From contig WIUZ02000023.1 in the NCBI GenBank assembly GCA_015956445.1, forward strand, positions 62,001 through 126,000: a DNA stretch of 64,000 nt. The letters run 5' to 3'. The number at the start of each line of letters is the position of its first letter. The first letter of the stretch is position 1. Under the pieces are notes generated by a model. It was not told the DNA's origin. It did no database searches and saw only the letters and a program-made list of their open reading frames with translations. The position numbers and the translations under genes were made by a program. Origin of the DNA: Thelephora terrestris (taxonomy: Eukaryota; Basidiomycota; Agaricomycetes; Thelephorales; Thelephoraceae). This document shows positions 12,001 to 14,193 of the stretch, piece after piece.

Positions 12001-14193
12001 GTTGTACTTGACATAATGAAGGGGAAACGCCCGGAACGGCCAAGACATCCCAGCTTCACGGTTCAGTTGGGGGTATTGATGGAGCGTTGCTGGAAGCAGG
12101 ATCCGTCCTCGCGCCCGGAAGCGGTAGATGTGCTGTTCGGTTTGCGTAGCGTGCAAAAGTTCGTGCCTTTCCGAATTCGCACTTTCATTTGGTCCAACTT
12201 TTTCTCATGTGCAGTGATCAACCTACATGGAGACGTCTGATCAGCAATACCCTCGCCAAGCACGAGCGCATCTCCCTGATCGATAAGATTTTCTCAGACC
12301 CGAATCAGGCCAAGACTGTCAGCAACCTCTCTAGAGATGATACTCAGATCTTTGTTGATAAGATCAACGAGGCAAGTTTCCCCCGTTCAAGGTGGAGGCC
12401 GTTCGACCATGGTGAAAACCTCCTCGTTTTGTCAATCAGTGGGGACCGGCAACCCTCTGCCAAAAATTGATTCCGTGCGGACTTTCCCACACACTCAGTT
12501 CGTTGCCCATCTTTCGAAATTAAATTTCTGTGGACTGCCACACACCACACCCACTTTAAAAACATAGAGCATGAGGAGACATAGCAAACTTCAATTTCAT
12601 GGTTGCGCTCCAAGAGAAAAGTACCTTGATTGCCAGAAATTGAGGTTTTTTGTGAATATCAGCGATCGAATCGAGTGAGGCAACTCCACCTAACAGGGGT
12701 GTGCGCCACAGTTCTCCCTTGAACGCAGCGGCCGTAACTCGGATATAAGGGACTATGAGGATAAAGACCGTGTAACTCGAGACTGATGTGAGATACGTTA
12801 ACATCGTCGAGTGCAGTGCGGGGTGTGGCATTCGACCACCCAGACTATGGCAAGATTCGACGCCTATAGCACCCCAACACTTGATTATGGGTAGCCCTTT
12901 GATGACCAACAGTATGATATTTTCACACAGGGTATTGCCTTCATAAAAAATTCAAACCATGAATCGATGCACGGCCACGCCACATAGTATTTCCGTATAT
13001 CTAATCCGACGCACGCAGTTTGGACGGGCTGGAAAATTGACCAGAGGATGTCTCACTGGGGAGCCAATTTCAAATGAGCACGCGTGGCCAAGGCGGGTTG
13101 CCGGTCCCCACAATCAGTTGTTCGATGATCTCGCGCCACGTGTGCACAGGAATTGTCAAATCTATCTATCCGCAATTTGCGGTGATCGGGCCCTGCTTCC
13201 AAGATCACTGGAACTTCCGCCTTTTCACGATCCAATGGAGAACCCTGTTTTTCAGAATGTACTCCCGAACGTGTGGAAGGGTCAATACCAAGGCCGGGAG
13301 GTGGCAGCCCAGGTTTCGAGGGTATCGCCGGGGGATGACACCAAGAAGATCAAGGGAGTGAGTTGTTGGTGATACGATTACCTTGCCATATGCACAACTA
13401 ACTATATGTCCTAGAAGTTTTGTAGGGTAGCTGGAATATGGGGCTTTCTCAAGCATCCGAACCTGCTACCACTCTTGGGCGTGATGATGACCGAGAATCA
13501 GCTCGTAATGGTATCAGATTGGATGTCGAATGGTAACATCATGGAATTCACAAGGGTGAATCCAAACGAGGACCGGTTAGGACTTGTATGTTCCCGTTTC
13601 CCCCTCAGAATCTTGCCGCTCACGTGACAGCTCTAGCTGAAGGGCGTGACTAAGGGGTTGATTCATATGCATGATCGGGGGATGATACATGGCGATCTCA
13701 GAGGGGTATGATCCGAATCTTATGATCGCTGGCCTGCATGCCGCTTACCCACCCCAAGGTGAACATCCTCATCGACAACGACGGAAATGCCCGTTTAGCG
13801 GGCTTCGATATGGCTACGGTGGCCGCGAGGCAGCAAACCCTGCCGTATGCAAATGGTTGGATTCCATGGATGAGCCCAGAGCTTATGGACCCACGGAGCT
13901 TTGGTCTGTTGGACAAACACCCAACGGTAAAATCAGATGTATATGCGCTGGGAATGGTCATATACGAAGTCCTCAGCGGACAGGCGCCATTTTCCGCGTA
14001 CGAGGAACTTTTGGTTTATCTCATGGTCCTAGATGGCAAACGCCCAGAGAGGCCCAGGGGAGTTGCAGGGGAACCATTCACAGATGTAATATGGAAAGTA
14101 TTGGAACATTGTTGGAACCAACAGGCGAGCGACCGCCCCAGTGCCAAACACGTGCTTTTAGGACTTAGAGGGACACCTCCTACAGTCAAATAG
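9099..14193 (+). CDS. Tandem kinase-like (pseudokinase) protein with orphan N-terminal domain
   Basis: I read this as one multi-exon gene. Exon 1 (MADIQK) joins a domain of unknown function seen in mushroom proteins: IGDVGFIREGGFHLLFSAGSPLGER, then LQPVLVYGFDMTRDFAM and CVFIRYYTMRFKIFPRVIRAGAGPHDLG. Phase-keeping splices lead through SLSEFPHQFNDLLCGEEYREC into kinase-like domain 1 (about 11200-12160), with VCVKSV, HGRLKGSNVLVDD, ISDFGLSRV and APELLSDG. A linker (PTWRRLISNTLAKHERISLIDKIFSD, then CGDRALLPRSLELP) precedes kinase-like domain 2 (about 13230-14170), with VWKGQYQGREVAAQV, HGDLRG, LAGFDMATV and WMSPELMD. Domain 1 has Arg where the catalytic HRD-type Asp should be. Domain 2 has Gln for the VAIK Lys, a lost glycine loop, and GFD in place of DFG. 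Both therefore look catalytically dead. Residues 12440-13110 are a transposon inside an intron (separate entry). Some exon joins in 9900-10700 are uncertain. Confidence 0.65.
12372..13117 (+). other. Transposon-expanded intron with GC donor
   Basis: The coding phrase FVDKINE ends at 12371 and is followed by GCAAGT, a GC-AG type donor with otherwise perfect consensus. Coding resumes after CAATCAG at 13117 with LFDDLAPRVHRN in the same phase. Without the 671-bp insertion and one target copy the intron would be 68 nt, normal for this gene. The insertion duplicated CAATCAG, so there are now two acceptor copies, at 12433-12439 and 13111-13117. Confidence 0.6.
12440..13110. mobile_element. Non-autonomous TIR DNA transposon (671 bp, 7-bp TSD)
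   Basis: Perfect 16-bp terminal inverted repeats TGGGGACCGGCAACCC (12440-12455) and its complement (13095-13110). Both sides carry the direct repeat CAATCAG (12433-12439 and 13111-13117), a 7-bp target-site duplication. No transposase-like coding is seen inside; short open frames are unconvincing. Seven-base target duplications do not match one of the most common superfamilies cleanly (hAT makes 8, CACTA 3, PIF/Harbinger 3), so the superfamily is left open. The element lies in the intron between the two kinase-like domains. Confidence 0.85.

Follow-up and report, generated by a model that had tools for sequence, protein, structure and literature searches.

In the Ds and dSpm alleles of maize, an element inserted into a gene is partly spliced from the pre-mRNA, and the alleles are leaky, with the splice sites lying in or near the ends of the element. 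Duplication of an acceptor by an inserted element is also already known, for example from canine merle, where, in the portion of the source available, a SINE is described at an intron/exon boundary of PMEL17 with a 15-bp target duplication that involves the original acceptor (PMC7349775). In that same portion, the length of the poly(A) tract tunes splicing, a cryptic acceptor is brought along by the SINE, and the choice of acceptor leads to normal or abnormal protein (PMC7349775). A third comparison is provided by the introners derived from DNA transposons, which, in the excerpt of the source, combine terminal inverted repeats (TIRs) with a target duplication, and for which the duplicated target can supply splice sites, with removal of the element from the mRNA (PMC9860276). 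A fungal case of exactly the kind described below was not present among the literature matches listed.

The locus analysed here lies in a 64,000-nucleotide stretch of the Thelephora terrestris genome (the window), where a transposon sits on the acceptor of an intron in a kinase-like gene; the shortness of the introns and the number of kinase-like genes point to a filamentous, probably basidiomycete, fungus. It resembles merle, as far as the available text on merle extends, in the boundary insertion and in a target duplication that involves the original acceptor, but the splicing outcomes are described for merle and are predicted here from DNA sequence. With the introners, in the part of their description that was available, it shares the TIRs, the target duplication and a splice site within the duplicated target. 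Introners, however, make new introns in many genes, whereas here an old intron gained an insert at its end: paralogs of the host gene have the intron, and the two copies of the element that could be placed in relation to introns lie at an acceptor (the window copy) and inside an intron (L021, discussed below). The likeness to the maize alleles is that of a transposon within a gene that is potentially removable by splicing, and the difference is that in this case the host supplies the donor as well as both AGs.

The reading preferred here, to which a probability of roughly 60% is assigned, is that of a young insertion at an old GC-AG acceptor that is spliced mostly at the AG proximal to the donor. 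A non-autonomous DNA transposon inserted recently at a 7-bp CAATCAG, the 3' end of an old GC-AG intron in a tandem kinase-like gene, and the 7-bp duplication made by the insertion left an AG within the same heptamer on each side. Most spliced transcripts probably take the proximal AG, keep the element and stop after a 27-codon extension, so that the second kinase unit would be lost, and a minority may take the distal AG, removing element and intron together and regaining the exact frame. The likely effect would be a strong loss of function in one gene of a large family, leaky for normal mRNA.

The element occupies positions 12440-13110 of the window on the forward strand (as do all features placed in the window below) and its TIRs, TGGGGACCGGCAACCC / GGGTTGCCGGTCCCCA, at 12440-12455 and 13095-13110, match at 16/16 positions, so that the 671-bp length and perfect 16-bp inverted termini read from the sequence in an earlier note are borne out. 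CAATCAG directly flanks it on both sides (12433-12439 and 13111-13117, placed by end comparison and by reference to other copies), and the insertion has, as that note had it, one AG on either side, the proximal at 12438-12439 and the distal at 13116-13117. The last G of the left heptamer and the first C of the right one supply a 17th pair to the arms (G12439-C13111), and element plus duplication amount to 678 bp, a multiple of three. The longest stop-to-stop frame wholly within the element is 131 aa and it has no transposase of its own; the genome search, the alignment of copies and the ends together point to a non-autonomous, MITE-like DNA transposon.

A DNA search of the organism's own genome (40.6 Mb, 60 contigs) returned at least 44 matches, including fragments and the ends of longer elements; 30 loci were cut out, and both ends were located for 24 distinct copies. 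Exact 7-bp target duplications, varying in sequence between copies, flank 18 of the 24, two of which (L008 and L009) have common flanks. The other six (L006, L010, L011, L013, L021 and L025) have no direct exact duplication; by eye, four of them (L006, L013, L021 and L025) seem to have 2-4 extra bases between the inverted end and an otherwise similar duplication of 6-7 bp, which may have been left by an imprecise insertion or excision. The flanking bases shown for L008 (contig C58) and L009 (contig C36, 36.9 kb) are identical and the duplication is the same, so C36 probably repeats part of C58, by duplication or as a second haplotype.

Five near-identical copies (L002-L006) occur elsewhere in the genome. 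In the copy alignment just 1 of 671 positions separates the window copy from L002, by a change private to the window copy, and 4-7 positions separate it from L003-L006; the remaining 18 aligned copies are 66.8-85.5% identical to it. By hand count, 10 of the 14 distinct sites that differ among the window copy and L002-L006 are CpG sites with a C-to-T or G-to-A change when the window copy is taken as the reference; the private difference is not a transition of this type. Judged by this near-identity to L002, by the dominance of CpG transitions among the differences and by the different nature of its private change, the window copy is very young. The CpG transitions among the young copies also suggest cytosine methylation of the older copies.

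Six elements of 4.8-6.2 kb carry the same TIRs, with one TIR mismatch (in L067), and an exact 7-bp duplication is present in five of the six. They measure 4869 bp (L061 545-5413 and L062 512-5380), 4811 bp (L063 518-5328), 4870 bp (L064 551-5420), 5810 bp (L065 562-6371) and 6165 bp (L067 653-6817), their end regions are 69.6-88.9% identical to the 671-bp element by BLAST, and they are its probable autonomous partners. A central stop-to-stop frame of 707-726 aa in L061, L062 and L064 is a putative transposase; a genome search with this ~700-aa ORF gave 24 match rows, including several from a second family at about 36-40% identity. Pfam searches with nine ORFs of three long elements assigned no family to the ~700-aa ORF, and with 12 aligned members gave none below E 0.035, the four weak matches including no hAT, though the protein may still be a very divergent hAT. 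A PDB sequence search with the ORF, as a single sequence and as a profile, gave no placement, and neither of two AlphaFold models of the putative transposase (mean pLDDT 58.4 and 65.3) had a Foldseek match against the PDB at E ≤ 0.001. The stretches SGDGT, SDHA-DQ and NDLNEG look like a DDE-type core, although this is a reading only. The hAT superfamily makes 8-bp target duplications, or 5-7 bp in some lineages, and those of the present family are 7 bp. This length is shared with the hAT7 transposons of rust fungi, for which 7-bp target duplications are given in the part of the source available (PMC12730594), but none of the 12 aligned members of the putative transposase here matches a hAT family in Pfam. 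A coiled-coil-like ORF and a ~300-aa ORF were also observed in L061, L064 and L065, and the ~299-aa ORF is faintly similar to ubiquitin-type peptidases in two of the three, below the Pfam cut-offs, the similarity being absent for the L064 copy.

The host is a tandem kinase-like gene of two units. Pfam searches with seven pieces of the gene found kinase matches in four, two on either side of the insertion, and none in the two exons that directly flank it. The upstream exon, which ends in ...DKINE, runs from 12215 to 12371, its start predicted from a GTGCAG acceptor and with a homologous exon in three paralogs (L068-L070); the intron follows at 12372-12439; and the downstream exon, which begins LFDDLAPRV... 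and is the first part of the second kinase-like unit, is placed at 13118-13357 from the sequence and the paralogs, with its 3' end predicted from GTGAGT. For the next upstream intron (12150-12214) a GC donor is likewise possible (GT/GCAAAA, set by eye against GC/GTAAGT of L068). Active kinases carry VAxK and DFG motifs; in 13118-14193 the second unit reads VAAQ and GFD in their place, and may therefore be a pseudokinase. When the genome is searched with the protein joined across the element, 137 match rows fall at E ≤ 1 and 70 of these also at E ≤ 0.001, which makes redundancy of the host gene plausible.

The comparison with an empty site was made through paralogs, 11 of which were fetched out of 136 further locations (nine ranking at the top and two ranking lower), the nearest being 60% identical in protein. 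An intron of 51-97 nt can be placed at the same codon boundary in 10 of the 11, with L078 left without an acceptor assignment, and by this comparison the intron is older than the insertion. In the closest paralog, L068, the homologous GC-AG intron is 67 nt long, starts with GCAAGT and ends with CAATCAG, and the heptamer occurs once in the 581 bases fetched around it. A target duplication arises by a staggered cut at insertion. Since the paralogs have the intron at the same boundary and the closest of them ends it with a single CAATCAG, the second CAATCAG of the window is, on this alignment, a target duplication; the earlier claim that the insertion duplicated the end of a 68-nt intron, AG included, thus agrees with the single heptamer of L068 and with the 7-bp duplications of 18 of the 24 copies. 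The GC donor at 12372, which had been remarked on as unusual, is present but is an old feature of the intron: GC is found in five of the 11 fetched paralogs (L068-L071 and L075) and GT in six, so the donor is inherited, and its origin as a product of the insertion is ruled out.

Two outcomes of splicing follow from the two AGs. With the proximal AG, the 68-nt intron is spliced out, the element stays in the message and 27 codons are added before a stop; with the distal AG, element and intron are removed together and DKINE is joined to LFDDLAPR in phase, in accordance with the exact restoration of the protein proposed in the earlier note. That note's broader conclusion, of an insertion hidden from the mRNA, is not supported as stated. 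Up to the proximal AG nothing is missing from the intron, its layout is that of the paralog introns, and the first AG after the branch region is the one at 12438. First-AG scanning from the branch point is the default in acceptor choice, and with the intron intact in this way the proximal AG is expected to be the main acceptor. The paralogs broadly agree with such scanning, as the last 30 nt hold no other AG in eight of the 10 assigned introns and one in the other two. A total of 37 other AGs lie between the proximal AG and the distal acceptor, which is the last of the 38 over 12440-13117, and only four of these, the distal one included, leave the message open and in phase. Against use of the proximal site, the probable branch region at 12411-12425 (GGTGAAAACCTCCTC), aligned to TTCAAAC of L068-L070, is weak by consensus and has no YTNAY match, and all four full-length folds put the G of the proximal AG in a base pair, with a probability of 0.99.

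This last observation bears on the alternative that survives best, although it is on balance unlikely: that the insertion is mostly silent, with the 17-bp TIR stem holding the G of the proximal AG and bringing the distal CAATCAG near the branch point, so that splicing would run mainly to the distal AG and the element would leave with the intron. A yeast study reports, in the part of the source available, that stems formed between branch point and acceptor shorten the effective distance and mask cryptic acceptors (PMC12350175). When the transcript is folded, the TIRs close the element in both the minimum-energy and the centroid structure (z = -2.29 against 20 shuffles), the pairs of the stem have probabilities of 0.88-1.00 in four transcript fragments, and the distal AG is paired at 0.12-0.40 where G12439 is at 0.99. 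The stem stays at 1.00 through 12 shuffles of the element body, so the TIRs suffice to form it; 12 shuffles of the right end abolish it, and pairing of the distal AG, at 0.12 with the native end, then averages 0.53 (sd 0.26). However, these right-end shuffles also increase pairing of the proximal AG (mean 0.95 vs 0.65), and its occlusion is thus independent of the stem. The proximal G is already paired at 0.73-0.99 in seven of eight nascent fragments that end before the right TIR, the shortest giving 0.38, and in the empty site the one AG present has a pairing probability near one half (0.45 and 0.51). Moreover, 5 or 6 of the 7 bases of the proximal heptamer fall below 0.5 in two of the four fragments, splicing at the proximal site could be complete before the distal end is transcribed, and energy folding of an 800-nt RNA is weak evidence. 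Because the proximal AG is paired without the stem, in nascent fragments as well, and is half paired in the empty site, the stem would act by exposing the distal site and bringing it closer, and not by hiding the proximal one. It is accordingly a doubtful proposal, resting on the folding models, that the TIRs have a second job in which their stem would loop the element out between branch point and acceptor and make the duplicated CAATCAG a working 3' splice site.

Use of a site within the element is far less probable. A sequence scan identified an acceptor-like CTAAT ... CAG at 13001-13018, in phase with the host exon, and splicing there would place 33 in-frame transposon codons before LFDDLAPR. 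Nothing else matches CTRAY in the 138 nt that precede the distal exon, and the motif stands 14 nt from its CAG and would leave the message open and in phase, but it is rivalled by weaker motifs (TTGAC at 13037 and CTCAC at 13052) and by in-phase AGs at 13062 and 13077, and it would require a 647-nt intron from a GC donor, compared to the 51-97 nt predicted in 10 of 11 paralogs. As a conserved property of the element an internal acceptor is ruled out, its CAG being present in six of the 24 aligned copies, all of the 671-bp subfamily. That the paired ends and the two heptamers reflect coincidence or an assembly artefact, with no target duplication, can be dismissed given the exact 7-bp duplications of varying sequence at 18 of 24 copies and the single CAATCAG in the fetched stretch of the nearest paralog.

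The position of the preferred young insertion does not call for any targeting. From assumed totals of 30,000-70,000 introns, the rough chance expectation is 0.11-0.45 acceptor-duplicating copies, so that one copy on an acceptor is unsurprising. A preference of the family for splice sites is likewise not upheld, as the target duplications show no motif by eye and L021 lies off its predicted acceptor. At L021 1463-2198, the only copy besides that of the window to be placed in an intron lies inside a predicted 58-nt intron of an F-box gene (hand count), stretched to 736 nt; the exon phases fit, and an alternative in-phase AG is found 12 nt upstream. Two further copies (L027 and L028) have splice-like flanks without a fixable gene model, and L016 is a candidate that looks intronic by eye. 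Pfam searches with ten ORFs flanking six copies found only F-box-like (L021, and L027 below the cut-off) and phosphatase (L021) matches.

The locus offers a young natural test of acceptor choice, in which one 7-nt acceptor occurs twice in each transcript, separated only by a transposon with pairable ends. Should the proximal site be used, this would be an ordinary gene disruption, and the finding is neat but modest unless the distal site is in use. If the stem does act as outlined above, a TIR transposon landing on an acceptor would be nearly silent from the start, without a splice signal of its own. Use of the distal site would mean that TIR elements need no adaptation to hide at acceptors, which would bear on the survival of transposons in intron-rich genomes and on the lengthening of introns.
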